From: Methyloversatilis thermotolerans
GTDB taxonomy: Bacteria > Pseudomonadota > Gammaproteobacteria > Burkholderiales > Rhodocyclaceae
Length of the DNA: 64,000 bases
Direction of reading: 5' to 3'
Assembly: GCF_000372885.1 (NCBI RefSeq)
Contig: NZ_KB889967.1
Coordinates: 3,795,430-3,859,429, forward strand
Positions 19,522 through 34,112 of this stretch are shown here, in pieces. Under the pieces are notes generated by a model, which had not been told where the DNA came from, made no database searches, and saw only the letters and a program-made list of their open reading frames with translations. Numbering within the stretch: the first letter of the stretch is position 1; the number at the start of each line of letters is the position of its first letter. Position numbers and translations under genes: made by a program.

Positions 19522-20937
19522 ATGAAGGATCACGATCGCGAACCGGACGCACCGTACAGACTGCGTTCATCGGCGCTGCGCAACTGGCTGCGCGGCTTGT
19601 CCTTCCGCGACATGTTTGCGCTGGGCATTCCGGCGCTGCTCGTGGTGGCCGCCGGCTTCTGGGTGGCGGCGAAGTACATCAAGCCTGCGCCGCCGGGTCA
19701 CATGGACATCAGTTGCGGCGCTTCGGGTTCGGCCTACGAATCGTCGTGCGCCGCCTACCGGTCGTACATCCAGCCCTTTGGCGTGGAAATGCGCCCGTTG
19801 CCGAGCGCAGGATCGGTGGAGAACCTGAACAGACTGCGCAGCAAGGGGCAGTCGGTGGATTTCGCATTGGTACAGGGGGGAACCGCTGGCGAGCACGTGT
19901 CCGGCCTGTTGTCGCTCGGTGCCGCATACTACGAGCCCTTGTGGGTGTTCTACCGCGGGCGGCCCGGCCTCGACCGCCTGGACCAGCTCAAGGGCTTGCG
20001 CATAGGCATCGGTGCGGAAGGCAGCGGCAGCCGCCATCTGGCATTGCAGTTGCTCGCGGCTCATGGCATGGCGAACGAACGCCGGCTCCTTCCGCTCGGC
20101 GGTCTGGAAGGCGCATCGGCGCTGCGCGCGCGCCGCATCGACGCACTCATCGTGGTGGGCCCGGTGCATTCGGCCAGCGTGTGGTCGCTGCTCTACGCCG
20201 AAGGCGTTTCTCTGATGAACTTCGCCCAGGCGCAGGCCTATGCCCGGCGCTTCCCGCATCTCTACCCCCTGACCTTGCCGCGCGGGGCGGTCGATTTCGT
20301 GCGGGACATTCCTCCGGCCGACGTTTCGCTGGTGGGCACCCAAGCATATGTCGTCGCGCGCGAGGATACGCATCCGGCACTGATAGACCTCATGCTGGGC
20401 GCGATGAAATCCACTCATGCCGAAGCCAATGTGTTCCAGCGACCGGGCGAATTCCCGAAAGCCGATGGCGGTGACTTTGAACTGCATCCGCGTGCCCGCC
20501 GCTTTCACGAATCGGGTCCGCCCTTCCTGCAGCGCTACCTGCCGTTTTCGGTCGCCAATCTGCTCGATCGCATGATTGTGCTGCTGGTGCCGCTGCTGGC
20601 CCTGGCCGTGCCGCTGTTCCGCATATTGCCGCAGCTCTATGTATGGCGTGTGCGCAGCAAGCTTTACCGGTGGTATGGAGAACTCAAGGACGTCGAGCGT
20701 CAGGCGCTGTCGGGAGAGAGCGACCGCGGCCTGAACGAGTGGCTGCGCGACCTCGACCGTATCGAAGCCGCGGTATCGCGCATCCATGTGCCGCTCGCGC
20801 ACTCCGATTATCACTATCAGTTGCGGGCGCACATACATATGGTCAGGGGCCGGCTGCAGGGCATGGCGACGCCCACGAATGGAACTGCCGAGGCTGCTCG
20901 GCAACAAAGCGATGCGGTTGCGACGGAAAACGTCTGA
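19522..20937 (+). CDS. TAXI-family TRAP solute-binding protein with membrane anchors
   Basis: A 471-residue protein. An N-terminal membrane segment (DMFALGIPALLVVAAGFWVA, about 33-55) is followed by a periplasmic TAXI-type binding domain (about 65-330; GGTAGEHVSGL, GIGAEGSGSRHLALQLL) and a C-terminal membrane segment (MIVLLVPLLALAVPLF, about 353-370) with a cytoplasmic, helix-rich tail of about 100 residues. Classical TAXI proteins are free periplasmic and sit beside a fused TRAP permease; no permease is present here. This suggests a sensory or accessory role rather than simple uptake. The start at 19522 has a GAGG upstream; the longer frame begins in a proline run and was rejected. Confidence 0.82.
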   Translation: MKDHDREPDAPYRLRSSALRNWLRGLSFRDMFALGIPALLVVAAGFWVAAKYIKPAPPGHMDISCGASGSAYESSCAAYRSYIQPFGVEMRPLPSAGSVENLNRLRSKGQSVDFALVQGGTAGEHVSGLLSLGAAYYEPLWVFYRGRPGLDRLDQLKGLRIGIGAEGSGSRHLALQLLAAHGMANERRLLPLGGLEGASALRARRIDALIVVGPVHSASVWSLLYAEGVSLMNFAQAQAYARRFPHLYPLTLPRGAVDFVRDIPPADVSLVGTQAYVVAREDTHPALIDLMLGAMKSTHAEANVFQRPGEFPKADGGDFELHPRARRFHESGPPFLQRYLPFSVANLLDRMIVLLVPLLALAVPLFRILPQLYVWRVRSKLYRWYGELKDVERQALSGESDRGLNEWLRDLDRIEAAVSRIHVPLAHSDYHYQLRAHIHMVRGRLQGMATPTNGTAEAARQQSDAVATENV

Positions 20938-20999
20938 TGCTTCGCCGTCCGGTTGGGCAGCGTCCGTTCTCGTGCCCGCTCGCTTACGCGCGTCTGCTG

Positions 21000-21026
21000 T
21001 TACAAACATTCGTGCTTGTATATACT
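21000..21026 (+). promoter_or_regulatory. RND operon promoter with AcrR/TtgR-like operator
   Basis: A good -10 (TATACT, 21021-21026) lies 27 nt before the efflux adaptor ATG. Positions 21001-21024 match the E. coli AcrR operator (TACATACATT, TATG, AATGTATGTA) at 18 of 24 places, with an imperfect dyad over the promoter. This is what is expected for repression by a TetR-family regulator. No tetR gene lies in the window. Confidence 0.6.
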
Positions 21027-21052
21027 TGTACGGAAAGCTCTGGAGTGTCCCC

Positions 21053-22243
21053 ATGTCCTTCCGCCAGGCGGGCTGCCTGCCCGCATCGCCGTCGTCTTTC
21101 CGTTTTTCCTCCCTCGTTCTGCTTGCCGCCCTGTCGTCGCTGCTGCTGTCCGCTTGCGGCGACCAGCAGCAGGGGGCCTCCGCTGCGCCGACGCCTTCTG
21201 CGCTGCCGGTCGCGGTGCTGCCGGTCCAGGCGACACGCGCGCCGCTCATCGTGGAGGCAGTGGCCCAGGCCGAAGGTGCTCGTGAAGTGGAGGTGAGGGC
21301 GCGGGTCGGCGGCATCCTCGAGAAGTGGCGCTTCCAGGAGGGCGAGCGCGTCAAGGCCGGACAGTTGCTTTTCCAGATCGAGCGGGCGCCGTACGAAATC
21401 GCGCTGGCGCAAGCGCGTGCGCGACTTGCCGAAGCGCAGGCGGTGGCGGAGCAGGCCAGTCGAGAGCTGCAGCGACTGCAGGGCCTGGTCGCCGACAAGG
21501 CGATCAGCCAGAAGGAGTTTGACGACGCGCGCTCCACCAGTGCAGTGTCGGCGGCCAGCGTGAAGTCGGCGGAAGCGGCGGTGCGCGAAGCGGAACTGAA
21601 CCTGAGCTATACCCAGGTCACCGCGCCGGTGAGCGGCGTCACCGGCCGTGCGCTGCGTTCTGAAGGTACTTTGATCAATACCGGCAGCGACAGCCTGCTC
21701 ACCACCATCGTTCAGATCGATCCGGTCTGGGTGCGCTTCAGTCTGTCCGACAACGACCTTGTTTCGGTGCCCGGGGGCCGCGCAGCAGTGCGCAGTTTCC
21801 GCGAGGTCGAACTGCAGTTGCCGGATGGCTCCATCCTGCCGCAGCGCGGCCGCATCAATTTTTCCGCCAGCCGCATCGACCCGACGCTGGGCACGCTGGA
21901 AATGCGCGCCGAGTTCGCCAATCCGGACGCCACCGTGCTGCCGGGTCAGTTCGTACGTGCGCGCGTGATCGCCGGCGAGCGCGACAATGTGTTTCTGGTG
22001 CCGCAGTCCGCGGTTGTGCAGACCGAATCCGGCCCGGTCGTCATGCTGGCCAATGCGGAGAACAAGGTCGAACCCCGTCCGGTCAAGCTGGCGCAATGGC
22101 AGGGCAAGGACTGGGTGGTGACCGGCGGCCTGCAGCCCGGTGACCGCGTGATCGTGAACAACCTCATCAAGCTTCGTCCCGGCGCGCCGGTTGCGCCCGC
22201 GACGCCGGATCAGCCTGCTCCCGCCGCGCCGGCCAGGTCCTGA
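21053..22243 (+). CDS. RND efflux periplasmic adaptor lipoprotein (AcrA/MexA type)
   Basis: Membrane-fusion subunit linking the RND pump to the outer-membrane channel. The 396-residue protein has a lipobox LLLSACG, a lipoyl/barrel-sandwich region (VEVRARVGGILEKWRFQEG, then LSYTQVTAPVSGVTGRAL), an alpha-hairpin between the two, a beta-barrel and a membrane-proximal domain. The start at 21053 follows the promoter/operator and gives a lipoprotein signal; the longer frame from 20786 overlaps the TAXI gene and was rejected. First gene of a three-gene operon, 14 nt before the pump gene. Confidence 0.95.
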   Translation: MSFRQAGCLPASPSSFRFSSLVLLAALSSLLLSACGDQQQGASAAPTPSALPVAVLPVQATRAPLIVEAVAQAEGAREVEVRARVGGILEKWRFQEGERVKAGQLLFQIERAPYEIALAQARARLAEAQAVAEQASRELQRLQGLVADKAISQKEFDDARSTSAVSAASVKSAEAAVREAELNLSYTQVTAPVSGVTGRALRSEGTLINTGSDSLLTTIVQIDPVWVRFSLSDNDLVSVPGGRAAVRSFREVELQLPDGSILPQRGRINFSASRIDPTLGTLEMRAEFANPDATVLPGQFVRARVIAGERDNVFLVPQSAVVQTESGPVVMLANAENKVEPRPVKLAQWQGKDWVVTGGLQPGDRVIVNNLIKLRPGAPVAPATPDQPAPAAPARS

Positions 22244-22257
22244 GGGAGCGCGCAGAC

Positions 22258-25200
22258 ATGGCACGCTTCTTCATCAGTCGCCCGATCTTTGCGGGCGTCA
22301 TATCGATCATCATCATGATCGCCGGCCTGGTGGCTTCGCTGTCGCTGCCGATCGCGCAATATCCCGAAATTTCGCCGCCTACGGTCATCGTCACCGCCAC
22401 CTATCCCGGCGCGAATTCGGAAACGCTGGCGCGCACGGTGGCTGCACCGATCGAGGAACAGTTGTCCGGCATCGAGGGCCTGCTCTATTTCAATTCGACC
22501 TCGACTTCGAATGGCACGGTCACCATCACGCTCACCTTCGAGGTGGGCACCAACCCGGATACCGCGCTCATCGCGGTGAACAACCGCATATCGGTGGCCG
22601 AATCAAGACTGCCCGAGGACGTGCGGCGTTCCGGCCTGGTGGTGCGCAAGCGCTCGAACAACCTGCTCATGATTGCCGCCCTCAAGTCGGCGGACGGCCA
22701 GCGCGACACGCTGTTCCTGACCAATTACGTGCAGGTGAACGTGCTCGAGGAATTGCGTCGTCTGCCCGGCGTCGGTGATGCGATCGCCTTTGACGCGCCA
22801 TACTCGATGCGCGTGTGGCTCAAGCCGGACGTGATGGCCCGACTGGGCATCACCACCAGCGACGTGGCCGCCGCGATCCGGGTGCAGAACGCACAGAACG
22901 CGGTCGGTCGCATCGGCCAGGAGCCTTCGCTCAATGGCCAGCAGCTCACCTACACCGTGACCGCCAAGGGCCGCCTGCTGAGCATCCAGGAATTCGAGAA
23001 CATCCTGCTGCGCGCCGAGGGGCCGGGCGGGGTCGTGCGGCTGAAGGATGTTGCGCGCATCGAGCTGGGTGCCGAAAGCTATGACCGGACCACCAAGGTG
23101 AATGGCACGCCGGTGGCCGGCATGGGCATCTATCTGCAATCCGGCGCGAACGCGCTGGATACCGCAAAGGCGGTACGTGCCAAGCTCGACGAAATGAGCA
23201 AGCGCCTTCCGGCCGGCACCGAATTCATCATTCCCAACGACACCACGCGCTTCATCAGCGAATCGATCAAGGAGGTGATCCATACGCTGGGCGAAGCCAC
23301 CATCCTGGTGGTGCTGGTGGTGTGGGTGTTCCTGCAGAACTGGCGCGCTACGCTGATTCCGCTGATCGCGGTACCGGTATCGCTGGTCGGCACCTTCGCC
23401 GGCCTGTGGGCGCTGGGCTTCTCGATCAATACGCTTACGCTGTTTGCGATGGTGCTGTCCATCGGCATCGTCGTGGATGACGCCATCGTGGTGCTCGAGA
23501 ACGTCGAACGCCAGATGCGCGAATTCGGTCATCCGCCGAAAAAGGCGGCGATCGAGGCGATGCGCGAGGTATCGGGCGCGCTGGTGGCCATGGTGCTGGT
23601 GCTGTGTGCCGTGTTCGTGCCGGTCGCTTTCCTCGGTGGCATTGCCGGCCAGCTCTACCAGCAGTTCGCCGCTACAGTGGCGATTTCGGTGTCCATCTCC
23701 GGCGTGGTGGCGCTCACGCTCACCCCCGCGCTGTGCGCGCTCATGCTGAAGGAGCACGAGGGCGAATCGCCGATGTTCAGGCCATTCAACCGCGGCTTCG
23801 AGTGGCTGACGCGGCTCTATACCGGGACCGTCGGGGCGACGCTGCATCACCGCATACTCGCCGCACTTATCGTGCTGGCCCTGTTCGTCGGTGCCGGCTT
23901 CATGTTCCGGATCGTGCCGGGTGCCTTCGTGCCTGCGGAGGATCAGGGGTATCTGTTCGGTTTCGTCACATTGCCCGACGGTGCTTCGGCCGGTCGCACC
24001 GAACAGTCGTTCGAGAAGCTGCGTCGCATCATCAACGAGGACCCCGCGGTCGAGAACGTGTTCATGGTGCGCGGCATGGACTTCATCACCGGCAACAACC
24101 GGCCGAGTGTGGCCATGACCTTCGTGGTGCTCAAGCCATGGAAGGACCGCACCACCACGGCCGACGATCTGTTGAAGAAGATTTCCGCCGAGGGCATGAA
24201 GCTCACCGACGGCATGGGCCTCATCTTCAATCCGCCGCCCATCCAGGGGCTGGGGACCGCGGGGGGCTTCGAAGCCTATGTGCAGGCGCGCGAGGATGCC
24301 GACGCCGCCAAGCTCGCCGGCATCACCGGCCAGTTCATCGCCGAGCTGAACAAGAGACCGGAACTGGTCGATGTGAAAACGTTCTTCCGCGTCTCGTCTC
24401 CGCAACTCGCGGTCGATGTGGACGAGCCGAAGGCGATCTCGCTCGGCATTCCGCTGGATGCCCTGTATTCGACGCTGCAGGCCACCATGGGCACGCTGTA
24501 CGTGAATGACTTCAACCGCTCCGGCAAGACCTACAAGGTGCAGCTGAGCGCCGATGCGCCCTATCGCATGAAACCGGAGGATCTCGGCAAGCCCTATGTG
24601 CGTTCGGATTCGGGCGCGATGATCCCGCTGTCGGCGGTGATCAGCGTGCGCACCATCGTCGGCCCCGAAATGGTCGAACGCTTCAACGGATTCGTGGCGG
24701 CCAAGCTGTTCGGCAATACGGCGCCGGGACGCAGCTCCGGCGAAGGCATCAAGGCCGTGGAAGAAGTGGCCGCGCAGGTGCTGCCGGCCGGCTATACGCT
24801 GGAGTGGGTGGGGCAGGCCTACCAGGAGAAGCGTACCGGCATCACGTCTGTACTTGCGCTGGCTTTCGGCATCATCATGGTGTTCCTCATTCTCGCTGCG
24901 CAGTACGAGCGCTGGTCGTTGCCGCTGGCGGTCATCATGGCCATCCCGTTCGCCGTGCTCGGTGCGCTGCTCGCGGTGTGGGTGCGCGGCATGCCGAATG
25001 ACATCTACTTCCAGATCGGGCTGGTCGTGCTGGTCGGCCTGGCCGCGAAGAACGCCATTCTCATCGTCGAATTCGCGCTGCAGAAGCAGCAGGAAGGCAT
25101 GGACGCGCTGAAGGCGTCGCTCGAGGCGGCACGCCTGCGCTTCCGTCCGATCTGCATGACCGCGCTCGCCTTCATCCTCGGTGTGGTGCCGCTGGTGATC

Positions 25201-25371
25201 GCGACCGGTGCCGGCGCGGCAGCGCGTCGCTCGATGGGTACCGGTGTGTTCGGCGGCATGCTGGCGGCGACCTTCATCGCGACGCTGTTCATACCGATGT
25301 TCTACAGCTGGATGGCGGGGCGCCGCGCGGCGCGTGGCGATGACGCACCGGACGAAGAAGTGAGGGCATGA
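22258..25371 (+). CDS. RND multidrug efflux pump (HAE1/AcrB type)
   Basis: Inner-membrane proton-driven transporter. Its 1037 residues match the AcrB/MexB length, with two repeats of one plus five membrane helices and large periplasmic loops. The proton-relay pair D407-D408 is in GIVVDDAIVVLENVER at exactly the AcrB numbering. MARFFISRPIFAGV is the classical start, preceded by GAGGGAG. The high match to the hydrophobe/amphiphile class suggests drug, dye or solvent export; the substrate cannot be told from sequence. The stop overlaps the outer-membrane factor gene. Confidence 0.97.
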   Translation: MARFFISRPIFAGVISIIIMIAGLVASLSLPIAQYPEISPPTVIVTATYPGANSETLARTVAAPIEEQLSGIEGLLYFNSTSTSNGTVTITLTFEVGTNPDTALIAVNNRISVAESRLPEDVRRSGLVVRKRSNNLLMIAALKSADGQRDTLFLTNYVQVNVLEELRRLPGVGDAIAFDAPYSMRVWLKPDVMARLGITTSDVAAAIRVQNAQNAVGRIGQEPSLNGQQLTYTVTAKGRLLSIQEFENILLRAEGPGGVVRLKDVARIELGAESYDRTTKVNGTPVAGMGIYLQSGANALDTAKAVRAKLDEMSKRLPAGTEFIIPNDTTRFISESIKEVIHTLGEATILVVLVVWVFLQNWRATLIPLIAVPVSLVGTFAGLWALGFSINTLTLFAMVLSIGIVVDDAIVVLENVERQMREFGHPPKKAAIEAMREVSGALVAMVLVLCAVFVPVAFLGGIAGQLYQQFAATVAISVSISGVVALTLTPALCALMLKEHEGESPMFRPFNRGFEWLTRLYTGTVGATLHHRILAALIVLALFVGAGFMFRIVPGAFVPAEDQGYLFGFVTLPDGASAGRTEQSFEKLRRIINEDPAVENVFMVRGMDFITGNNRPSVAMTFVVLKPWKDRTTTADDLLKKISAEGMKLTDGMGLIFNPPPIQGLGTAGGFEAYVQAREDADAAKLAGITGQFIAELNKRPELVDVKTFFRVSSPQLAVDVDEPKAISLGIPLDALYSTLQATMGTLYVNDFNRSGKTYKVQLSADAPYRMKPEDLGKPYVRSDSGAMIPLSAVISVRTIVGPEMVERFNGFVAAKLFGNTAPGRSSGEGIKAVEEVAAQVLPAGYTLEWVGQAYQEKRTGITSVLALAFGIIMVFLILAAQYERWSLPLAVIMAIPFAVLGALLAVWVRGMPNDIYFQIGLVVLVGLAAKNAILIVEFALQKQQEGMDALKASLEAARLRFRPICMTALAFILGVVPLVIATGAGAAARRSMGTGVFGGMLAATFIATLFIPMFYSWMAGRRAARGDDAPDEEVRA

Positions 25372-26813
25372 CGATGCTTACGGCAGTGAAAACACCGCTC
25401 GCGCTCGCCTGCGCGATCCTGCTGGGCGGCTGCATGGTCGGTCCCGACTATGTCCGGCCCGACATCAGCCTGCCGGTGCAGTATGCGGACCGCACGGCCG
25501 ACGACGCGGCCGCCATTCAGCGCGGCTGGTGGATGCAGTTCAACGACCGCACGCTCAATGGACTGGTCGAGCAAGCGCTGGTCGAGAACAGCGACATTCA
25601 GCGTGCGGCGGCGCGCATCGAGGAAGCGGACGCCCTGCTGCGAGAGGCCGGAGCGGCGCTTTTCCCCGATGTGTCGTTGCAGGCGGGCGCATCGCGCTCG
25701 CGCATCAGTGCCGTGGGGGCTCCCATTCCGAGCGGTGCGCCGCTGTACCGGAACAACTTCCAGACCGCTCTGGCGACGTCGTTCGAACTGGACTTCTGGG
25801 GCCGCTTGCGTCGCGCGAGCGAGGCGGCTCGCGCACAGGCGCTGGGCACCCGCTATGCGAAGGATACGGTCGAGCTCACGCTGGTAAGCCAGGTCATCGG
25901 CAGTTATCTGAACTTGCGCGCGCTCGACGCGCAGCTCCGGCTTTCGCGTGACACGCTCGCCACGCGGCGCGAGAACGCCGACATTCTGCGCACGCGCGTG
26001 GCGCGTGGCCTGACCGATGAGCTGGAGCTGCAACAGGCGCTCGGCGCGCTGGCGCAGATCGACGCACAGATCGCCGACCTGGAACGCAGTCGCGGACTCG
26101 CCGAGAACCAGATCGGACTGCTCACCGGCCAGCTTGGCTTGCGCATCCCGGCGGGAGACCTGCGCGACCTGCCTCTGCCTCCGGTGCCGCCGGCTGGCTT
26201 GCCCTCTGCGCTGCTGGAGGCGCGTCCCGATGTGCGCCAGGCGGAAACCGAGCTCGCCGCGGCCAATGCGCGCATCGGTGTGGCCAGGGCGGCGCTTTAT
26301 CCGTCGATATCGCTGACCGGCAACTATGGTTCGCAAAGTCGCGAGCTGTCGGATCTGTTCAGCGGTCCCGCCAACATCTGGTCACTGGGCCTGGCCCTGG
26401 ATCTTCCTCTGTTCGATGCCGGACGGCGCAGTGCGCGGGTGGATCAGGCGAGCGCGCAGCAGAAGCAGGCACTGGCCGCCTATGTGTCCGCCGTGCGCAG
26501 CGCCTTTACCGACGTGCGCGATGCGCTGGTGGCTGGCGAATACTACGGCCGCAGCGTGGCGGCGCTGCAGCAGCAGGCCGATGCTGCTGCACGCACTCTG
26601 CAGCTCGCGCAGAAGCGTTACGACGCCGGTTACTCGCGCTATCTGGAGGTGCTGGATGCGCAGCGCACCGCCAACGAAGCATCGCTGTCGCTGGTGCGCG
26701 CGCGCCAGTCGCAACTGGCCGAAGCCGTGAACCTGTATGCCGCCCTGGGAGGCGGGTGGTTACAGGATGTGGCCGGCGTGCGGGACGGTGCGGAAACACC
26801 GTCCACGCGCTGA
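25368..26813 (+). CDS. RND outer-membrane channel lipoprotein (OprM/NodT family)
   Basis: TolC-like outer-membrane factor completing the tripartite pump. The 481 residues begin with a lipoprotein signal (AILLGGC, lipidated Cys22) followed by MVGPDYVRP, the standard NodT/OprM start. Two internal OEP repeats are seen, each with long helices (LVEQALVENSDIQRAAARIEEA; LRALDAQLRLSRDTLATRREN). The ATG overlaps the pump stop. It converges with the bactofilin gene across only 8 nt. Confidence 0.95.
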   Translation: MTMLTAVKTPLALACAILLGGCMVGPDYVRPDISLPVQYADRTADDAAAIQRGWWMQFNDRTLNGLVEQALVENSDIQRAAARIEEADALLREAGAALFPDVSLQAGASRSRISAVGAPIPSGAPLYRNNFQTALATSFELDFWGRLRRASEAARAQALGTRYAKDTVELTLVSQVIGSYLNLRALDAQLRLSRDTLATRRENADILRTRVARGLTDELELQQALGALAQIDAQIADLERSRGLAENQIGLLTGQLGLRIPAGDLRDLPLPPVPPAGLPSALLEARPDVRQAETELAAANARIGVARAALYPSISLTGNYGSQSRELSDLFSGPANIWSLGLALDLPLFDAGRRSARVDQASAQQKQALAAYVSAVRSAFTDVRDALVAGEYYGRSVAALQQQADAAARTLQLAQKRYDAGYSRYLEVLDAQRTANEASLSLVRARQSQLAEAVNLYAALGGGWLQDVAGVRDGAETPSTR

Positions 26814-26821
26814 CAGAGCGC

Positions 26822-27421
26822 TCAGCCCGCGAGCGCGCTCAGTGGGCGCGTCTCGTCTGCCTTGCGTTCCATCGGCTTGAGATGTTCCTTGCCGGCAGTG
26901 GCGATCGATTTCACGTCGCCCGATATCTCGCCGCCTTCCTCGATATGGATCTTGCCGTAGCGGATCTTGCCGCTGACCTGGCCGGTCGCGTGCACGATCA
27001 ATTGTTCGCGCGCGGTCAGTTCGCCATCAAAGCGGCCGTGGATTTCCGCGATATCGATACTCACGGTGCCCGAATAAGCGCCATTCTCCGCGATGCGGAT
27101 GACGCGGCTGTCCATCGTGGCTTCGACCCGCCCTTCGACCACCAGCGTATCGCAATCGAGAATCTCGGCGCCGCGCAGTTTCACATCCGGGCCCACGATG
27201 AGCCGGCTGCCCGAGTCCGACGGCGGGGCCACGGCATCCCGTTTGTCCTCCTTTGCCGGCTGCGTGGTCGCGGTGTCGCGTTGTGGCGACTGCGTGTGCG
27301 CGGCAGCGCTGCCGTTCGCGAGCAGGCCGGTCTGCGGCGCGGTGACCGTCGCGCCCGGCCGCAGCGTGCGTGGCAGCGAATTGTCGGGGGTCTTGGGGAA
27401 GAGTGCGGGCTTGTTGAACAT
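26822..27421 (-). CDS. Bactofilin (polymer-forming cytoskeletal protein)
   Basis: A 199-residue protein. The C-terminal bactofilin domain (about 90-180) has the repetitive right-handed beta-helix pattern of short hydrophobic/Gly turns (LIVGPDVKLRGAEI, DTLVVEGRVEATM, IAEIHGRFDGELTA, KIHIEEGGEISGDV). The N-terminal 85 residues are Pro/Thr/Gln-rich and probably disordered. The start at 27421 has AAGGAG 6 nt upstream; the longer upstream frame was rejected because it runs through the promoter. Bactofilins form membrane-associated filaments that scaffold wall, stalk or polarity proteins. It is transcribed from a sigma54-type promoter under apparent GlrR control. Confidence 0.93.
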   Translation of the reverse strand: MFNKPALFPKTPDNSLPRTLRPGATVTAPQTGLLANGSAAAHTQSPQRDTATTQPAKEDKRDAVAPPSDSGSRLIVGPDVKLRGAEILDCDTLVVEGRVEATMDSRVIRIAENGAYSGTVSIDIAEIHGRFDGELTAREQLIVHATGQVSGKIRYGKIHIEEGGEISGDVKSIATAGKEHLKPMERKADETRPLSALAG

Positions 27422-27472
27422 GCTGTCTCCTTGAAGTCCGGAGCCGCGGAAAGTGCGGCGCCAGACAGGCTT

Positions 27473-27488
27473 CGCAAGGGTTGTGCCG
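27473..27488 (-). promoter_or_regulatory. Sigma54 (-24/-12) promoter of the bactofilin gene
   Basis: Reading leftward, CGGCAC-AACCC-TTGCG has the invariant GG (-24) and GC (-12) exactly 10 nt apart and matches the TGGCAC-N5-TTGC consensus except for the first base. The predicted start is near 27462, leaving a leader of about 40 nt. Two GlrR-type sites lie about 120 and 188 nt upstream of it. Confidence 0.8.
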
Positions 27489-27573
27489 TTTCCGGAAACA
27501 CTTGAGGAATCAAGGCCATCTTTTTGCGTTGCATGGAAGAAGTGCTGATTCGCCCTGGCCGTAGAGCGCTCGG

Positions 27574-27591
27574 TGTCGCCGTATCCCGACA
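27574..27591. promoter_or_regulatory. GlrR-type activator site 1 (TGTC-N10-GACA)
   Basis: A perfect TGTC, 10 nt, GACA inverted repeat. This is the site described for E. coli GlrR (QseF). It is centred about 120 nt upstream of the predicted bactofilin start, a normal enhancer distance for a sigma54 activator. Confidence 0.78.
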
Positions 27592-27640
27592 GGCTGCCGG
27601 CGTCTTTGTCACAGGACCGCGCCCTGAGCGCGTCCTGCGC

Positions 27641-27658
27641 TGTCGTGCCGGGGCGACA
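27641..27658. promoter_or_regulatory. GlrR-type activator site 2 (TGTC-N10-GACA)
   Basis: A second perfect TGTC-N10-GACA repeat, 67 bp from site 1, in the same 352-bp gap between the bactofilin and the glrK-like gene. Both perfect sites share the extended form TGTCG-N8-CGACA. It could also affect the divergent kinase operon. The rest of the gap holds no gene that I can support. Confidence 0.78.
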
Positions 27659-27773
27659 ATGCGGCGCGGCCCGGCGTTGCACATCGGGGATCTGCGATCC
27701 TGTTGCATTCGCTTACGGCGCAATGCCAGCGTGCTGTCTAGACTGATGGCCCAGTTCTGTCACCGTTGTTTCC

Positions 27774-29165
27774 ATGCCTCACGTTTCGTTCCGAACCTCG
27801 CTGCTGCTCACGGTGCTGTTGATCGCCGCCGCCCTCGGAGCCGCAGCCGCGAGCGGCTGGATCATGCTGCAGGACTTCGCGCGCGCCAGTCGCGATGCCG
27901 GTGCCGACGCGCTGGGCATGAGCAGCGCGATGCAACGGCTCGATGAGCGTTCGCTCGACATGGTGCGCAGCGCCCGCCAGTTCGCGGTGCTCAAGGACGA
28001 TGCGCTGAGGCTGCGTCATGACGAGGCACGCGCGCAGGCGGATGAGGCCTTGAGCGATCTGCAGGGCGCGCTTTCCGATACCGCCGTGCCGTCGCGCTGG
28101 CATGCAGCGGCCGGGGCACTCGCGGCGGCGTTTGCAGTCAATGCGGACGATGTGAGCGCCGCCGAATCCGAGCTGCTGCGCCTCAATGACGTGATAGCGG
28201 CAGCGGTACGGCATTACCTGGAGATCCGCAACGGTGAACTGACCGCAGCCCTGGAGAGCAGCCGTGATGTCCTGCGCCTGCAGGTGGCGGCGGCGGTTGT
28301 GCTGGCGTTGCTGCTGGCGATGGCGGCCGGCTGGTGGATACTGCGGCCGCTGCGCGAGGTCGAGCGTGCCATCGCCCGCATGGGAGAAGGACGGCTGGAT
28401 GGGCCGGTGCAGATCGGCGGTCCGGCCGATCTGCAGCAACTGGGCGAACGTCTGGAATGGCTCAGACAACGACTGGCCGATCTGGAAGCTCACCGCAACC
28501 GCGTGCTCAGCCACGTATCGCACGAACTGAAGACGCCGCTTGCCTCGCTGCGCGAGGGGGTGGCTTTGCTGCGCGACGGGGTGACCGGACGACTTACGCC
28601 GGAACAGAGTGAAGTGACCGCGATCCTGGATGCGAACGCGCGTGCGCTGCAGGAGCGCATCGAGCAGTTGATCGGCTATAACGCCACCCAGTTCGATGCC
28701 CGTCATCTCGATCTGCGCCCCACTGCGCTGCGAGCGCTGGTGCGCGAGGTGGCCGCCGACCTGAAGCTGCAGGCGCAGGCCAAGGACGTGAGGCTCGAGG
28801 TATCGGGTTATGCGCCGCCGGTGCGTGGCGATGCCGCCAAGCTGCGCATCGCGCTGACCAATCTGCTCAACAATGGCATCAGCTTCAGTCCGCACGGGGG
28901 CACGGTGAAGCTGCTGCTCAGCAGTGAGGACGGCGTGACCCGCATCGACTGCACGGACGAAGGTCCGGGGGTGGCGCCCGAGGAAAGTGAACGCATCTTC
29001 GAGCCCTTTTTTCGCGGCAGCCGCCGCGCGCCTCGTCCGGACAAGGGCAATGGACTGGGTCTGGCCATCGTCCGGGAATTCGTCGCCGCGCATGGCGGAC
29101 GGGCCATGGTGGTCCCGAGCGAGCGCGGCGCCCACTTCAGGATAGAGCTTCCTCATGCGTCTTGA
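27774..29165 (+). CDS. glrK: GlrK/QseE-like sensor histidine kinase
   Basis: A 463-residue membrane kinase. Two helices (about 8-30 and 166-186) flank a helical periplasmic sensor of about 135 residues. Then come HAMP (about 187-235), HisKA with H250 in SHELKTPLASLREG, and HATPase with N-box LTNLLNNGISFS and G-box KGNGLGLAIVREF. The following genes, a QseG-like lipoprotein and a GlrR-like sigma54 activator, reproduce the enterobacterial glrK-qseG-glrR (qseEGF) order, which is the basis for the symbol. The start follows the 352-bp regulatory gap; no strong Shine-Dalgarno is seen. Confidence 0.85.
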   Translation: MPHVSFRTSLLLTVLLIAAALGAAAASGWIMLQDFARASRDAGADALGMSSAMQRLDERSLDMVRSARQFAVLKDDALRLRHDEARAQADEALSDLQGALSDTAVPSRWHAAAGALAAAFAVNADDVSAAESELLRLNDVIAAAVRHYLEIRNGELTAALESSRDVLRLQVAAAVVLALLLAMAAGWWILRPLREVERAIARMGEGRLDGPVQIGGPADLQQLGERLEWLRQRLADLEAHRNRVLSHVSHELKTPLASLREGVALLRDGVTGRLTPEQSEVTAILDANARALQERIEQLIGYNATQFDARHLDLRPTALRALVREVAADLKLQAQAKDVRLEVSGYAPPVRGDAAKLRIALTNLLNNGISFSPHGGTVKLLLSSEDGVTRIDCTDEGPGVAPEESERIFEPFFRGSRRAPRPDKGNGLGLAIVREFVAAHGGRAMVVPSERGAHFRIELPHAS

Positions 29166-29661
29166 GTACGCCCCTCTGTGCAGGCTGATGCTTCCGCTGC
29201 TGCTCGCCGCCTGCGCCAGTGCGCCCCGCCCGCCCGCGACAGGCGATGGAGCGGCCGACGCCATGCCCGCGCGCGAAGCAGCCGCGGACGTGGCCCGGTC
29301 CGATGACGCGGCGCGCGAGCGGGATGCCGAACGCCGTCTCCAGCAGGCGATGCAGTGGGCTCAGCCTCGAGGCGGTCAGCTCGCACGTGCGCGCAGCCAG
29401 CTCGAAGCCTTTCTGGCGCTCGACGACGAGGCGGCACGCACGCTGCACCCGTATGCGCGCGCGCTTCTGGACCAGGTGATGGAACGTCAACGACTGGATG
29501 CGGCAAACAGCAGGCTCACGCAGCAGCTCGAGCGCAGTGCACAGCAGTTGAAGGACAGCCAGGCGCGCGCGGAAGAACTGCAGCGCAAGCTGGATGCGCT
29601 GGCCGACATCGAACGCAGCCTGCCCGGCAGCCGTCCGGCCGTGCGCGGAGTGCCGCGATGA
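29155..29661 (+). CDS. qseG: QseG-like lipoprotein
   Basis: A 168-residue lipoprotein (lipobox LLLAACAS) with a polar linker, a helical middle and a C-terminal coiled coil rich in Gln, Leu and Glu (SRLTQQLERSAQQL). It lies between the kinase and the response regulator, overlapping the first by 11 nt and the second by an ATGA. E. coli QseG is an outer-membrane lipoprotein that controls the partner kinase; position, size, lipobox and coiled coil agree, though sequence identity cannot be assessed here. Confidence 0.72.
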   Translation: MRLEYAPLCRLMLPLLLAACASAPRPPATGDGAADAMPAREAAADVARSDDAARERDAERRLQQAMQWAQPRGGQLARARSQLEAFLALDDEAARTLHPYARALLDQVMERQRLDAANSRLTQQLERSAQQLKDSQARAEELQRKLDALADIERSLPGSRPAVRGVPR

Positions 29662-31037
29662 GCGCTTCACCACGGCTGTTGCTGGTAGACGACGATACCG
29701 ATCTGCTCCGGCTGTTGTCGCTGCGCCTGAAATCCAGCGGCTATTCGATCGCCACGGCAGAGAGCGCCGAAGCGGCGCTGACGCGGCTCGAGATCGAGCG
29801 CTTCAGTCTGGTGATCAGTGATGTGCGCCTGCCGGACCGCGACGGCCTCGCCTTGTTCGAGCAAATCCGGCTCAGGCATCCTGCGCTGCCGGTCATCCTG
29901 CTGACTGCACACGGCACGATACCGGACGCGGTCGAGGCGACTTCGCGCGGCGTGGCCGGCTACCTCACCAAGCCCTTCGACAGTGCCGCGCTGCTGGATC
30001 GCGTGACTCGTGCGCTGTCCTGCGCAGCACCTTCCGGTGGCGCGGGTGCTGCGGACACCGGCTGGCGGGATGGCATCATCAGCTGCAGTGCAGCGATGCA
30101 ATCCGTGCTCGACGAAACCCGGCTGGTGGCGGCGTCCGATGCCAGCGTCCTGATCCAGGGCGAGAGCGGAACCGGCAAGGAACTGCTGGCGCGCGCATTG
30201 CATCGAGCCAGTGCGCGGACCGACGCACCGTTTGTTGCCATCAACTGCGGCGCCATACCGGAAGCCCTGCTCGAATCCGAACTGTTCGGTCACGAGCGCG
30301 GCGCCTTCAGCGGCGCCGTCAGTCGCCATACCGGGCTGTTCCGCGCCGCTCACGGTGGCACGCTCTTCCTCGACGAGATTGGCGACATGCCGCTGAGCCT
30401 GCAGGTGAAGCTGCTGCGCGTGCTGCAGGAGCGCGCGGTCAGGCCGGTTGGCGCGACCCGGGCCGAGCCCATCGATGTGCGCATCGTATCGGCCACCCAC
30501 TGCGATCTGGACGAACTGCTGGCGCGTGGGCAGTTCCGCGAGGATCTTTACTACCGCATCAATGTGGTGACGCTGAAGCTGCCTTCGCTCGCGGAGCGCC
30601 GCGAGGACATCCCGCTGCTCGCCGACCATTTCCTGCGAGGCCTGGCGAGCAAGTACGGACGATCGGTCCGCGGGTTCGCGCCGGAGGCGCTGGAGGCGCT
30701 GGCCGTTGCGAACTGGGCCGGCAACGTGAGGCAGTTGCAGAACGTGGTCGAACAGGCGTGCGCGTTGACCACCACACCGCTCATTCCACGCGCCCTGGTC
30801 GAGCGCGCCCTGAGCGTGCGGAGCATGGATGTGTTGTGCTACGCCGAAGCCAAACAGCGCTTCGAGCGTACCTACCTCGTGCAGTTGCTCAAGCTGACTG
30901 CGGGCAATGTCAGCGATGCGGCACGCATCGCCGGTCGCAACCGGACCGAGTTCTATCGGCTGCTGCAACGCTATCGGCTCAGTCCCGGCCAGTTCCGCGC
31001 CGATCCGCCCACTGTCGCCGAGCGCCGACACGCGTGA
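29658..31037 (+). CDS. glrR: GlrR/QseF-like sigma54-dependent response regulator
   Basis: A 459-residue NtrC-class activator. The receiver (1-120) has DDD at 11-13, D55 and K105 in YLTKPFD. The AAA+ domain has Walker A GESGTGKE (168-175), Walker B GGTLFLDEIGDMP and the sigma54-contact loop GAFSGA (215-220), with Ser instead of the usual Thr. A C-terminal Fis-type HTH follows (NVSDAARIAGRNRTEFYRLL). It presumably receives phosphate from the kinase two genes upstream. Candidate targets lie on both sides of the operon. Confidence 0.88.
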   Translation: MSASPRLLLVDDDTDLLRLLSLRLKSSGYSIATAESAEAALTRLEIERFSLVISDVRLPDRDGLALFEQIRLRHPALPVILLTAHGTIPDAVEATSRGVAGYLTKPFDSAALLDRVTRALSCAAPSGGAGAADTGWRDGIISCSAAMQSVLDETRLVAASDASVLIQGESGTGKELLARALHRASARTDAPFVAINCGAIPEALLESELFGHERGAFSGAVSRHTGLFRAAHGGTLFLDEIGDMPLSLQVKLLRVLQERAVRPVGATRAEPIDVRIVSATHCDLDELLARGQFREDLYYRINVVTLKLPSLAERREDIPLLADHFLRGLASKYGRSVRGFAPEALEALAVANWAGNVRQLQNVVEQACALTTTPLIPRALVERALSVRSMDVLCYAEAKQRFERTYLVQLLKLTAGNVSDAARIAGRNRTEFYRLLQRYRLSPGQFRADPPTVAERRHA

Positions 31038-31044
31038 TGCCCGT

Positions 31045-31063
31045 GCCGGCGTTGTTCGCCGGC
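31045..31063 (+). terminator. Hairpin after the glrR-like gene (weak terminator)
   Basis: GCCGGCG and CGCCGGC form a perfect 7-bp stem with a TTGTT loop, just after the response-regulator stop. There is no T-run, so termination strength is uncertain. Confidence 0.35.
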
Positions 31064-31078
31064 AAGATGCCGGAGGAC

Positions 31079-31096
31079 TGTCGCCATGGCCCGACG
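31079..31096. promoter_or_regulatory. GlrR-type activator site upstream of the BON gene (one mismatch)
   Basis: TGTC, 10 nt, GACG: seven of eight conserved positions, and the same TGTCG-N8-CGAC core as the two sites near 27.6 kb. It is centred about 110 nt upstream of the predicted sigma54 start for the BON-domain gene. Confidence 0.6.
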
Positions 31097-31171
31097 GATG
31101 CCGACGGTCGCCGCGGGCGCGGACTCAACCTGTGTGACGCAGGTGCTCCATCCGTCGCCGTATCCGCGGGG

Positions 31172-31187
31172 CGGCACGAAGTGTGCT
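31172..31187 (+). promoter_or_regulatory. Sigma54 (-24/-12) promoter of the BON-domain gene
   Basis: CGGCACG-AAGT-GTGCT has GG and GC exactly 10 nt apart and the full GGCACG -24 block; the -12 block is GTGC instead of TTGC. The expected start is near 31198, about 25 nt before the ATG, with the ribosome site between. Confidence 0.65.
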
Positions 31188-31221
31188 GAGGCTGCTCTGT
31201 CATCACCGGAGGAGCCTGTCC

Positions 31222-31581
31222 ATGAATCGTCACATCATTCTCGGTTTCATCTCGACCACGGCCATGGCCTATTCCATCTGCACCCCCGCTCAGGCGGCGG
31301 AACTGGTGGCCGAATCGATCGTGCAGATTGCCGACGGACACGCTGACGAACGCGACCGTCGTCTGCAGGAAAGGGTCAAGGGCGCGCTCCACGCGGAAGC
31401 GTCGCTCGACGGGTGCTATGTTGCCGTTGCGGCGCACGACGGGCGGGTATCGCTTGCAGGCGTTGTGCGGGACGCGACTCAGCTCGCCCGCGTGCTGCAG
31501 ACCATCGTGGCCATCCCGGGCGTGCGCGAGGTGGACAACGGTCTGGAAGTCGTCGCCGGGATGGCCGCTGGCGGGCGCTGA
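31222..31581 (+). CDS. Secreted BON-domain protein
   Basis: A 119-residue protein. A signal peptide (hydrophobic IILGFISTTAMAYSI, cut near AQA-AE) is followed by one BON domain (about 50-112; LQERVKGALHAEASL, VSLAGVVRDATQLARVLQTI, GVREVDNGLEV). BON domains bind membranes or peptidoglycan and are common in OsmY-like stress proteins. The ATG at 31222 has GGAGGAG 7 nt upstream. Its promoter carries sigma54 and GlrR-like signals, placing it in the same apparent regulon as the bactofilin. Confidence 0.85.
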   Translation: MNRHIILGFISTTAMAYSICTPAQAAELVAESIVQIADGHADERDRRLQERVKGALHAEASLDGCYVAVAAHDGRVSLAGVVRDATQLARVLQTIVAIPGVREVDNGLEVVAGMAAGGR

Positions 31582-31606
31582 CCCGGCGGCCGCAGCCGTT
31601 TCCTGG

Positions 31607-32383
31607 CTAGCGTGCCGGCACGCGATAGTGATTCGCGGTCATGAGATCCACACCGCAGGGCGTGGCTTCCACCCAGTCGATGAAACGTTTCACCATGGCC
31701 TTGCCGACAAAACGTGCGCCGTGCTGTGGCACGATCATGTCGATGTCGAGCTGCCTCGCCATGGTGGCCCAGAGGCGGCCGATGCGGTTCGACACCATGT
31801 AGCGGCTGTGAAAGCCCAGCATGTGCGGTATGTGCGCGTCGAAATCCTTCACCGGCACCGGTGCATCGCCGTGATCCATCATCGATGCGCCAAGATCGCC
31901 GGAGAACAGTATCTTCGCGATCGGATCATAGAAATGGAAGTTTCCTTCCGAGTGCATGAAGTGCGCCGGCAGGGCAAGCAGATCGCTCGTTCCAAGCGGA
32001 ATGTGCGCACCTTCGTCGGGGATGGGCAGGATGCGCGCGGTGTAATCGCGGCCGCTGGTGAAATGGGGTACGAAGCGCGCCCACAGTCTGGAAATCATCA
32101 CCGTGCAGCCGGTGCTCACCATCCATTTGTTGAGCGAGGCGATGATGTCCGGATCGGCGTGCGAAGCCAGGATGAGATCGAGATCGCGCGACGGGAAATG
32201 GCGCTGCATGGCCATCATCAGCGCGGTATAGGTCATGTTGCCGCCGGGATCGATCAGCGCGCCATGACCGCTGTCGACGACCAGAAACTGGTTGCACTGA
32301 ACCGCGTGGTCGGCGTCCTCGTCGACCAGATCATAGAAGGCAAGGCAGACATGCCTGCCGTTGTTGAACAGTTCCACCGCCAT
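31607..32383 (-). CDS. ODP-type di-iron metallo-beta-lactamase-fold protein
   Basis: A 258-residue stand-alone domain resembling the oxygen/NO-reducing half of flavodiiron proteins. The di-iron ligands appear complete: H75-x-D77-x-D79 (HADPD), H144 in HFMHSEGN, D163 in FSGDLG and H221 in PQHGARF. There is no flavodoxin domain, so electrons would have to come from a separate partner. The start at 32383 (MAVELFNN) was chosen because the longer frame continues into the tRNA-derived repeat. An O2, NO or peroxide sensing or reducing role is possible but unproven. Confidence 0.82.
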   Translation of the reverse strand: MAVELFNNGRHVCLAFYDLVDEDADHAVQCNQFLVVDSGHGALIDPGGNMTYTALMMAMQRHFPSRDLDLILASHADPDIIASLNKWMVSTGCTVMISRLWARFVPHFTSGRDYTARILPIPDEGAHIPLGTSDLLALPAHFMHSEGNFHFYDPIAKILFSGDLGASMMDHGDAPVPVKDFDAHIPHMLGFHSRYMVSNRIGRLWATMARQLDIDMIVPQHGARFVGKAMVKRFIDWVEATPCGVDLMTANHYRVPAR

Positions 32384-32511
32384 CGCGCACCTCGCACCGC
32401 ATACGTGCCAGGACAAAAGCCGGTCAGTCTGCAGTAAAGGCGAGGGGCGGTTTCCACAACTGACGGTGTCGTTGACATCGATCAACAGTGGCGCACGGCG
32501 AGGAGGGGATG

Positions 32512-32561
32512 TGGTGGGCCCCCTGGGAGTCGAACCCAGCACCAACGGATTATGAGTCCGC
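32512..32561 (-). repeat. attL: 50-bp duplicate of the tRNA-Ile 3' end
   Basis: Identical to 39788-39837 over 50 bp, covering CCA, the acceptor 3' strand, the T arm, the variable loop and the anticodon arm up to the anticodon stem. The sequences diverge immediately on both sides (AAAAG here, TGCTC at the other copy). The 5' half of a tRNA is missing, so it is not a functional tRNA gene. Confidence 0.95.
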
Positions 32562-32645
32562 AAAAGCTCTGATTTATCGGCATTGTTCGAGGTTGATGGT
32601 CTGGACCTTTTTCACGGTAAGTCCCCGTTTAGCCTAATAAATAGG

Positions 32646-32675
32646 TTGATTCGCGTTTACATGCGTTGCTATAGT
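32646..32675 (+). promoter_or_regulatory. Promoter of the integrase gene
   Basis: TTGATT (32646-32651), an 18-bp spacer, then TATAGT (32670-32675). The predicted start falls inside the inverted repeat at 32675-32719, so a protein bound there would block transcription. Confidence 0.6.
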
Positions 32676-32719
32676 CTGGCTACATGAGGGCTACATCAAG
32701 GCCCTAGTATGTAGCCAGA
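32675..32719. repeat. Nested inverted repeat in the integrase leader
   Basis: TCTGGCTACAT (32675-32685) and ATGTAGCCAGA (32709-32719) are perfect 11-bp inverted copies. Inside them AGGGC (32687-32691) pairs with GCCCT (32701-32705). A further direct GGCTACAT lies at 32689-32696. The right arm ends 2 nt before the integrase ATG, where a Shine-Dalgarno would be expected. Likely integrase arm-type sites, autoregulatory operator, or both. Confidence 0.75.
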
Positions 32720-32720
32720 G

Positions 32721-34112
32721 ATGAAGCGCGAGCGTCTCACCAACCCGAGGATTTCCGCTGCAACTTGCCCCGAGGGCAAGGGCCAGGCGTTCATCTGGGA
32801 CACAGATGCGCCGCGTCTTGCTGTTCGCATAACGGCCGCTGGCGCCAAGTCGTTCATCTTCGAAGCGAAGCTTCATCGGCAGACGGTTCGCCAAACCATC
32901 GGCGATGTGCGGGCGTGGAGCATCGAGAGTGCGCGCGCCGAAGCCCGGCGGCTTCAGACGCTCGTCGATCAGGGCATCGACCCGCGGCAGGAACGCGCGG
33001 AGAAGCTTGCGATCATCGCGGCGAAGAGAGAGAAGGCACGGCGCACCGAGTCGCCGGCGCTGGAGGCCTGGGCGGAGTACATCGAAGCCCGTCGGTCGAA
33101 GTGGGGCGCGCGAACACTCGCGGACCACCAGGCAATGGTCGGAGAGGGCGGTAAGCCCAAGACTCGCGGGCGCCGAAAAGGCCAGGGCGACACGACGCAG
33201 CCGGGCATCCTGCGGGGGCTGCTGTCGCTACCTCTTGAGCGCATTGACGCCGACGCCGTGCGCGATTGGCTGAAGCCGGAGGCGGAGCGGCGGCCGACGC
33301 ATGCCGCCCTTGCTTTCCGCATGTTGCGAGCCTTCCTGAACTGGTGCGCCAGCACGAAGGAGTTCGCCGGGCTGGTTCATGCAGATGCCTGCAAGACTCG
33401 GGCGGCACGCGACGAGCTGCCCAAGAAGGTCGCCAAGGATGACTGCCTGCAGCGCGAGCAGCTCCCCCTCTGGTTCAAGCAGGTGCGCGCGCTTGCGAAT
33501 CCCGTTCAGTCCGCTTACCTCCAGGCGCTGCTGCTGACTGGTGCGCGCCGTGAAGAACTCGCCGGCCTCCGCTGGGACGACGTCGATTTCCAGTGGAACA
33601 GCCTCACCATCCGCGACAAGGTCGAGGGTGAGCGAACCATCCCGCTCACTCCCTACGTGGCCGACCTTCTGCGCGACCTGAAGCAGCGAAACGATGCTGA
33701 TGCCCGAAAGGTGCTCAAGCTGCGCGGGCCGGATCAGGCTGTCGCGCGGGAGCGTGCAGAACGTGCGCTGCCCTGGGTGTTCGGCAGTCCTGCAGCTGCA
33801 TCCGGTCGGCTGCAGGAGCCGCGCATTGCGCACAACAAGGCATTGGCCGCCGCCGGTCTGCCGCCGCTCACCCTGCACGGTCTGCGCCGGTCGTTCGGCA
33901 CGCTCTCCGAGTGGGTGGAAGTGCCGACCGGCATCGTTGCGCAGATCATGGGGCACAAGCCGTCCGCGATCGCGGAGAAGCACTACCGCCGCCGGCCGCT
34001 GGACCTGCTGCGCATGTGGCACACGAAGATTGAAGCTTGGATGCTGGAACAGGCCGGCGTCGCGCAATTCGGGTCAGTGACCAAGCGGCGTCCTCGGCCT
34101 GTGCGGAGCTGA
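32721..34112 (+). CDS. int: P4-type tyrosine integrase
   Basis: Catalyses site-specific recombination at tRNA-Ile. The 463-residue protein has an N-terminal arm-binding DUF4102-like domain (about 5-100), a core-binding domain (about 110-225) and a catalytic domain with R276 (LTGARREELAGLRW), H386-x-x-R389 (HGLRRSFGTL), H412 (GHKPSAIAEK) and the nucleophile Y422. All catalytic residues are present, so it may still be active. It reads inward from the left att copy. The leader has almost no Shine-Dalgarno and contains the inverted repeat described separately. Confidence 0.93.
   Translation: MKRERLTNPRISAATCPEGKGQAFIWDTDAPRLAVRITAAGAKSFIFEAKLHRQTVRQTIGDVRAWSIESARAEARRLQTLVDQGIDPRQERAEKLAIIAAKREKARRTESPALEAWAEYIEARRSKWGARTLADHQAMVGEGGKPKTRGRRKGQGDTTQPGILRGLLSLPLERIDADAVRDWLKPEAERRPTHAALAFRMLRAFLNWCASTKEFAGLVHADACKTRAARDELPKKVAKDDCLQREQLPLWFKQVRALANPVQSAYLQALLLTGARREELAGLRWDDVDFQWNSLTIRDKVEGERTIPLTPYVADLLRDLKQRNDADARKVLKLRGPDQAVARERAERALPWVFGSPAAASGRLQEPRIAHNKALAAAGLPPLTLHGLRRSFGTLSEWVEVPTGIVAQIMGHKPSAIAEKHYRRRPLDLLRMWHTKIEAWMLEQAGVAQFGSVTKRRPRPVRS

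Follow-up and report, generated by a model that had tools for sequence, protein, structure and literature searches.

The closest described counterparts of the genes considered here are those of the Escherichia coli QseE-QseG-QseF system, whose genes stand in the order kinase, lipoprotein and regulator. In the available part of PMC6075780, E. coli GlrR (QseF) is described as recognizing the site TGTN12ACA and as having glmY, with three sites and IHF, and rpoE as its targets, the same two that the original prediction for our locus had named. The QseF consensus printed in the accessible portion of PMC8745638 is TGTCN10GACA; this equals the motif that the original prediction had assigned to GlrR. 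GlrR and GlrK are also listed among the systems of Acidithiobacillia in the available text of PMC12194929. In E. coli, the small RNA gene glmY lies just upstream of glrK and has TGTC-N10-GACA sites, two of which are spaced by 63 bp, together with a -24/-12 promoter. Among bactofilins, BacA of Caulobacter carries a membrane-targeting peptide, MFSK, and recruits the wall synthase PbpC, according to the portion of PMC12448750 at hand. The accessible text of PMC3162934 presents sigma54 as controlling the exterior of bacteria; searched for single terms, it gave no occurrence of DUF583, ccmA or cytoskelet and two of QseF. The bactofilin text in the available part of PMC9218911 concerns VemR. In the open-licence literature we found no paper joining bactofilin with GlrR or QseF and none linking bactofilin transcription to a sigma54 enhancer system, although absence there does not amount to absence in print. 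To our knowledge, the factors that set bactofilin levels are poorly known.

The bactofilin gene and the divergent operon

We analyzed a stretch of 64,000 nucleotides from Methyloversatilis thermotolerans (assembly GCF_000372885.1, contig NZ_KB889967.1, positions 3,795,430 to 3,859,429), hereafter the window, whose own numbering is used below. The gene at 26822..27421 (minus strand) encodes a protein of 199 amino acids with the N-terminus MFNKPALFPK and has an AAGGAG ribosome-binding site at 27427-27432 (minus strand). The protein matched the Pfam Bactofilin domain (PF04519) at 64.6 bits against a cut-off of 27.9, and its AlphaFold model contained a confident beta core, with blocks at pLDDT 89-97, between ends of low confidence. 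A Foldseek comparison of the model with the PDB gave no match at E < 1e-3; the best three matches were all bactofilins, 6rib, 2n3d, and 6ria, with E values of 6e-3, 1.3e-2, and 0.3 and TM-scores to the target of 0.83, 0.85, and 0.60, respectively, and the model and these matches together pointed to a beta-helix fold. The window protein, whose core model matches 6rib and 2n3d, is in this like Caulobacter BacA and the Thermus bactofilin; unlike those proteins, its transcription is predicted to be under a sigma54 enhancer system. The N-terminal MFNK resembles the MFSK peptide of BacA (PMC12448750, available part) and is the one feature that hints at membrane-associated polymerization. The product is presumably a membrane-associated scaffold recruiting wall- or envelope-building proteins. 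Among the best 80 of 444 matches, its nearest named relatives were Methyloversatilis sequences.

The genome has a second bactofilin gene (L001, G000:C1:2818589-2818891), near which, out to 1.5 kb, neither a perfect GlrR site nor a perfect sigma54 element was found. Next to the window's bactofilin gene ends what appears, on reading the open reading frames, to be a three-gene RND-type efflux operon (20786-26813), of which the last gene, the only one checked by Pfam, matched OEP. A role in defence for the bactofilin or for the lipoprotein described below was rejected, PADLOC having returned no match.

Divergently from the bactofilin gene, three genes on the plus strand (27774-31037) were found in the order kinase, lipoprotein, and regulator, which is that of E. 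coli QseE-QseG-QseF; the original prediction of a GlrK-QseG-GlrR-like operon was borne out, with a lipoprotein that is only weakly QseG-like. The regulator (29658..31037) has a receiver with the phosphoacceptor aspartate, a sigma54-activation domain, and a C-terminal helix-turn-helix, and showed 58% identity with GlrR of E. coli K-12 over 448 amino acids, the C-terminal helix-turn-helix with its recognition helix being near-identical. The GlrR model ranked first among the NCBIfam models at 605 bits, below its cut-off of 763, and the next model reached 419; this rank and the 58% identity mark it as a GlrR ortholog. The histidine kinase encoded in the same operon (27774..29165; HAMP, HisKA, and HATPase_c domains) showed 35% identity with E. 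coli GlrK over 408 amino acids, and there was no GlrK model for it among the 25 NCBIfam models listed. The lipoprotein (29155..29661) has the lipobox LAAC, and its position and lipobox fit QseG; its likeness in sequence is weak, with 50% identity to E. coli QseG over 24 amino acids only (E=0.002) and 23.5 bits against NF007997 (QseG), below the cut-off of 234. The genome contains a single gene for sigma54 (rpoN). Where E. coli has glmY just upstream of glrK, the window has instead a divergent gene for a protein scaffold beside the operon. A GlmY-like RNA in the region was rejected, as there was no Rfam match at the gathering threshold in 26000-33000.

A predicted sigma54 promoter and paired putative GlrR sites upstream of the bactofilin gene

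Upstream of the bactofilin gene lies a sigma54 -24/-12 element, GGCACAACCCTTGC (27474..27487, minus strand), of the form GGCAC-N5-TTGC with GG and GC 10 nt apart, where a sigma54 promoter (CGGCAC-N5-TTGC) had been claimed; the inferred transcription start is near 27462. This element is one of three mismatch-free matches to GGCAC-N5-TTGC in the window, and matches with at most one mismatch occurred there at chance frequency (28 observed versus 29.3 expected), so that the element is not significant alone. Farther upstream are two perfect TGTC-N10-GACA palindromes, predicted to be the proximal (TGTCGCCGTATCCCGACA, 27574..27591) and distal (TGTCGTGCCGGGGCGACA, 27641..27658) upstream activating sites of GlrR, which are conserved near -170 and -237 from the ATG, respectively. 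The spacing between them is 67 bp, and from the -24 element to their near edges the distances are 87 and 154 bp. Counted from the inferred start, their centers lie at approximately 120 and 188 nt, the distances at which two perfect sites had been claimed. In this promoter, two TGTC-N10-GACA sites stand before a -24/-12 element, as they do at E. coli glmY, where the spacing is 63 bp. Applied upstream of glmY as a positive control, the same scan recovered three perfect sites, among them the two spaced by 63 bp, along with a GG-N10-GC element at -26.

The window contained five TGTC-N10-GACA matches against 0.97 expected, a number reached in 0 of 100 shuffles. A single-site scan of the whole genome with TGTCG-N8-CGACA was not informative (29 matches versus 20 for the backwards control). 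A perfect pair with a spacing of 63-71 bp occurred once in the 4.16-Mb genome, at the bactofilin promoter.

Conservation within the family

Since conservation in related genomes had been put forward as a means of refuting the prediction, we searched 150 genomes of the window's family for the sites and the -24/-12 promoter. A bactofilin gene (E<=1e-10) was present in 71 of them, and GlrR orthologs (identity of at least 55%) were present among the matches listed in at least 74 of the 150, with up to 11 candidates scored per genome. A strict pair was defined as two sites with at most one mismatch each in the eight core bases, spaced by 63-71 bp, and within 450 bp of the chosen ATG. The count took in 70 of the 71 bactofilin loci; the 71st (G120), which has GlrR, was analyzed separately and also carried the pair at its bactofilin gene. 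Strict pairs were found at 42 of 58 loci with GlrR and at 1 of 12 loci without GlrR among the matches listed, some of the latter genomes being incomplete (52-87%), so that GlrR fragments may have been missed (Fisher p=5e-5; because the genomes are related, Fisher tests overstate independence). The single pair without a GlrR match belongs to G090, a genome that is 86% complete; GlrR is present in G031, of the same genus. As controls, the strict pair appeared in 1 of 3500 first-order shuffles and in 9 of 1309 450-bp windows taken elsewhere in these loci.

Of the 43 family loci with a pair, 38 have after it a sigma54 element that departs from the pattern at one position at most. When 23 loci from different genera were aligned, the TGTCG and CGACA positions were 70-100% identical and the flanks 26-61%; the G at +4 (91%) and the C at +13 (87-100%) were conserved though they lie outside the search pattern. 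With a weight matrix trained on the family, scores above 10.5, approximately the top shuffle score, were obtained at 52 of 58 loci with GlrR and 2 of 12 without, a count that is partly circular because the same loci trained the matrix. Perfect pairs occurred at 45 places in 38 of the 150 family genomes, and the reversed pattern nowhere; 19 of the 45 are these bactofilin promoters and nine more lie, by their coordinates, at the 3' end of glrR.

Among named loci, taken as the best 80 of 444 matches and overlapping with other family genomes, with which they are not summed, the pair was present in 68 of 80, a GlrR with an identity of 55% or more was encoded within the fetched locus in 64, and both were present in 59; in 59, too, the pair was followed by a sigma54 element with no more than one mismatch. 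These loci include Methyloversatilis, Thauera, Azoarcus, Aromatoleum, Denitromonas, and Dechloromonas. The sites were in this way found to be conserved, both in the family and among the named loci.

The strict pair was absent from 16 of the 58 family loci with GlrR, six of which also stayed below the matrix score. One genome with GlrR (G009) had no sites at its bactofilin gene. In three others (G064, G113, and G148), which had no pair at the bactofilin gene, glrR is located upstream in the same orientation. G148 was the one among them read gene by gene: a GlrR-type promoter at the glrR end precedes glycine-zipper genes and then the bactofilin gene, with putative co-transcription. In L083:14-4229, glrR, two glycine-zipper-like genes, one further gene, bactofilin, and a LemA-like gene (labeled from reading) stand in one direction behind a GlrR-type promoter.

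Both window sites lie in the intergenic region that the divergent genes share, 116-200 bp upstream of glrK, and would also suit autoregulation of the glrK-qseG-glrR operon with bactofilin as a bystander. The place of glmY just upstream of glrK in E. coli is in line with such a reading, as is the report, in the available part of PMC8745638, that QseF of P. mirabilis drives the glmY-qseEGF operon. Against it, the sigma54 element points at bactofilin, and no plus-strand match to GGCAC-N5-TTGC with at most one mismatch occurs from the sites to glrK. Where glrK or glrR is a divergent neighbor, the pair was present at 25 of 30 loci, and it was present at 17 of the remaining 28 loci with GlrR; because 7 of these 28 still have glrR within 11 kb (4 of 7 with the pair), the cleaner unlinked figure is that of the genomes in which glrR is on a different contig or at a distance of over 200 kb, and there the pair was retained at bactofilin in 13 of 21. 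On this ground, we rejected autoregulation as the only function of the sites and regard the bystander reading as very unlikely.

Other families of the order

The order of the window's genome was taken to be Burkholderiales in the GTDB sense. In a sample of 399 genomes of the order, bactofilin at E<=1e-25 was found in 77; all 69 outside the family were examined, and GlrR was present at E<=1e-120 in 55 of these 69 loci. The strict pair, here with a spacing of 60-72, occurred at 10 of 55 loci with GlrR and 1 of 14 without, which is not significant (p=0.44). With the family-trained matrix, scores above the 99% level of 552 shuffles were obtained at 39 of 55 and 2 of 14 loci, respectively (p=1.7e-4), and at the highest threshold (10.5) at 26 of 55 and 1 of 14. 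As the genomes are related, a tree-based test was made as well; it had three supported independent pairs, with a mean of 1.9 in favor, 0.0 against, and 1.1 showing no difference, too few for significance. Sites that accompany GlrR and are rare without it were accordingly found in the family and, by the matrix, outside it, the strict test outside being not significant. A stricter pair pattern was present in 25 of the 399 genomes, and its control in none. Several loci of two families (f21 and f22) scored on the sites and had no good sigma54 element. In a class-level search of 369 genomes, this type of bactofilin was found in three, all of the window's own order.

These data also bear on the idea that the sites serve some other enhancer-binding protein that prefers the same DNA. 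GlrR is matched a second time in the genome at E below 1e-90; one genome outside the family (G362) has a high-scoring pair (31.6) and no GlrR match at the cut used; and TGTC-type pairs with different inner bases occur in four family genomes. On the other side, the sites largely track the presence of GlrR, and the recognition helix of the window regulator corresponds to that of the E. coli protein, whose sites at glmY share the core. We consider it very unlikely that a different protein acts at the bactofilin sites. The pairs with a different inner pattern lie at L132, L133, L141, and L145, often with CGGACA or AGACA in the right half; a sigma54-like element is present at three of the four, and another enhancer-binding protein may act there.

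The sigma54 pattern at chance level in the window and the 29 genome matches to TGTCG-N8-CGACA versus 20 for its backwards control would fit a chance match or functionless inheritance of the motif combination, but pair-level controls were near zero (1/3500 shuffles; reversed pattern none) and the core was conserved while the flanks diverged, so that chance origin was rejected and this explanation is extremely improbable.

Proposed activation of the bactofilin promoter by GlrR

Since the sites are conserved and correlate with the presence of GlrR, activation by GlrR and sigma54 is well supported by comparison. We estimate at roughly 86% the probability that GlrR activates the bactofilin gene through the sigma54 promoter in the window genome, as originally predicted; the family counts, the retention of the pair where glrR is distant, the agreement with the consensus in the available part of PMC8745638, and the glmY control all speak for it. 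According to this model, the GlrK-like kinase would sense an envelope state and phosphorylate GlrR, probably with the help of the QseG-like lipoprotein, and GlrR would bind the two palindromes, approximately six helical turns apart. Bending of the DNA, probably by IHF, would bring GlrR to the waiting sigma54 polymerase, and ATP hydrolysis would open the bactofilin promoter.

The 43 family loci with a pair were scanned for matches to the IHF consensus, allowing at most one mismatch. In the stretch from the proximal site to the promoter, such motifs were found in 22 of 43 loci, against a shuffle mean of 4.5 and a maximum of 10 in 100 runs; in the stretch separating the two sites they were found in 16 of 43, where shuffles averaged 1.8 and reached 7 at most. 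Their placement fits the IHF-assisted model of glmY.

The conserved predicted GlrR switches suggest that the scaffold is built in response to envelope signals, and it is a reasonable guess that a membrane-bound bactofilin scaffold places wall or envelope enzymes during envelope stress. The bactofilin case would fit the sigma54 regulons dealing with the cell exterior (PMC3162934, in its accessible text). If the model is correct, a conserved GlrR-sigma54 switch ties a cytoskeletal scaffold to an envelope-sensing three-component system, and GlrK-QseG-GlrR gains a protein-scaffold output beside glmY and rpoE. The timing of bactofilin building would become testable, for example in Methyloversatilis, Thauera, and Aromatoleum.

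Other candidate targets of GlrR

A further perfect TGTC-N10-GACA site, predicted to be a GlrR site of a second target and absent from the original prediction, overlaps the 3' end of glrR (31013..31030). At 66 bp from it is a predicted site with one mismatch, TGTC-N10-GACG (31079..31096), and these are followed by a sigma54-like element with one mismatch, GGCACGAAGTGTGC (31173..31186, plus strand), and by a gene for a small exported protein with a BON domain (31222..31581, plus strand; PF04972, 38.8 bits versus a cut-off of 27). Against the OsmY model, this protein scored 25.9 bits, under the cut-off of 174. From this layout, the BON-domain gene downstream of glrR is probably a second target of GlrR. 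Two such sites 64-68 bp apart around the stop codon of glrR were present in 17 of 30 GlrR loci, and a BON-like match at E<=1e-3 in 16 of 30.

In other genomes, site pairs precede glycine-zipper, MlaC, MdoG, and BON genes and a glycosyltransferase gene; loci with such pairs are L248, L249, L250, L139, L130, L138, L143, L234, and L238 (glycosyltransferase, MdoG, MlaC, and glycine-zipper). We take the glycosyltransferase to be OpgH; Pfam gives Glycos_transf_2. Envelope upkeep is the theme common to the genes identified behind site pairs, as far as their predicted products indicate.

Beyond the BON-domain gene, the window has a gene of the ODP-type metallo-beta-lactamase fold by Pfam (31607-32563), beside an open reading frame labeled as integrase-like from reading (32721-34112). 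The region 31607-34112 is possibly the edge of an integrated element.

Lineages without the kinase

In five genomes of three genera (G048, G143, G108, G067, and G115), glrR directly faces the bactofilin gene. A search for GlrK at E<=1e-30 found none in four of the five, and only a partial match of 33% identity in G115; two genus mates of G048 have a full or partial GlrK. The site pair persists at bactofilin genes beside kinase-less GlrR. Among GlrR proteins encoded next to a bactofilin gene that keeps the paired sites, and with no kinase gene found beside them, the phosphoacceptor aspartate was replaced or missing in L159, L165, L174, L184, L010, and L018, and no receiver was aligned at that position in L011, L014, L167, and L176, rows that partly repeat the same strains.

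At somewhat less than even odds, we propose that GlrR serves across the order as an envelope and scaffold switch, acting on bactofilin, BON-domain, glycine-zipper, MlaC, and periplasmic-glucan genes, and that in Pseudothauera and some Azoarcus lineages the system has been reduced to two partners, a site-bearing bactofilin gene and, facing it, a kinase-less GlrR with the aspartate or the receiver lost, which would act independently of phosphorylation as a bactofilin-dedicated activator. The kinase-less lineages amount to a natural experiment on enhancer-binding proteins in the unphosphorylated state. Placed on the GlrR tree, the eight labeled rows need two changes, with a single origin also possible; GlrR of G048, which is not among the labeled rows, retains the phosphoacceptor aspartate.
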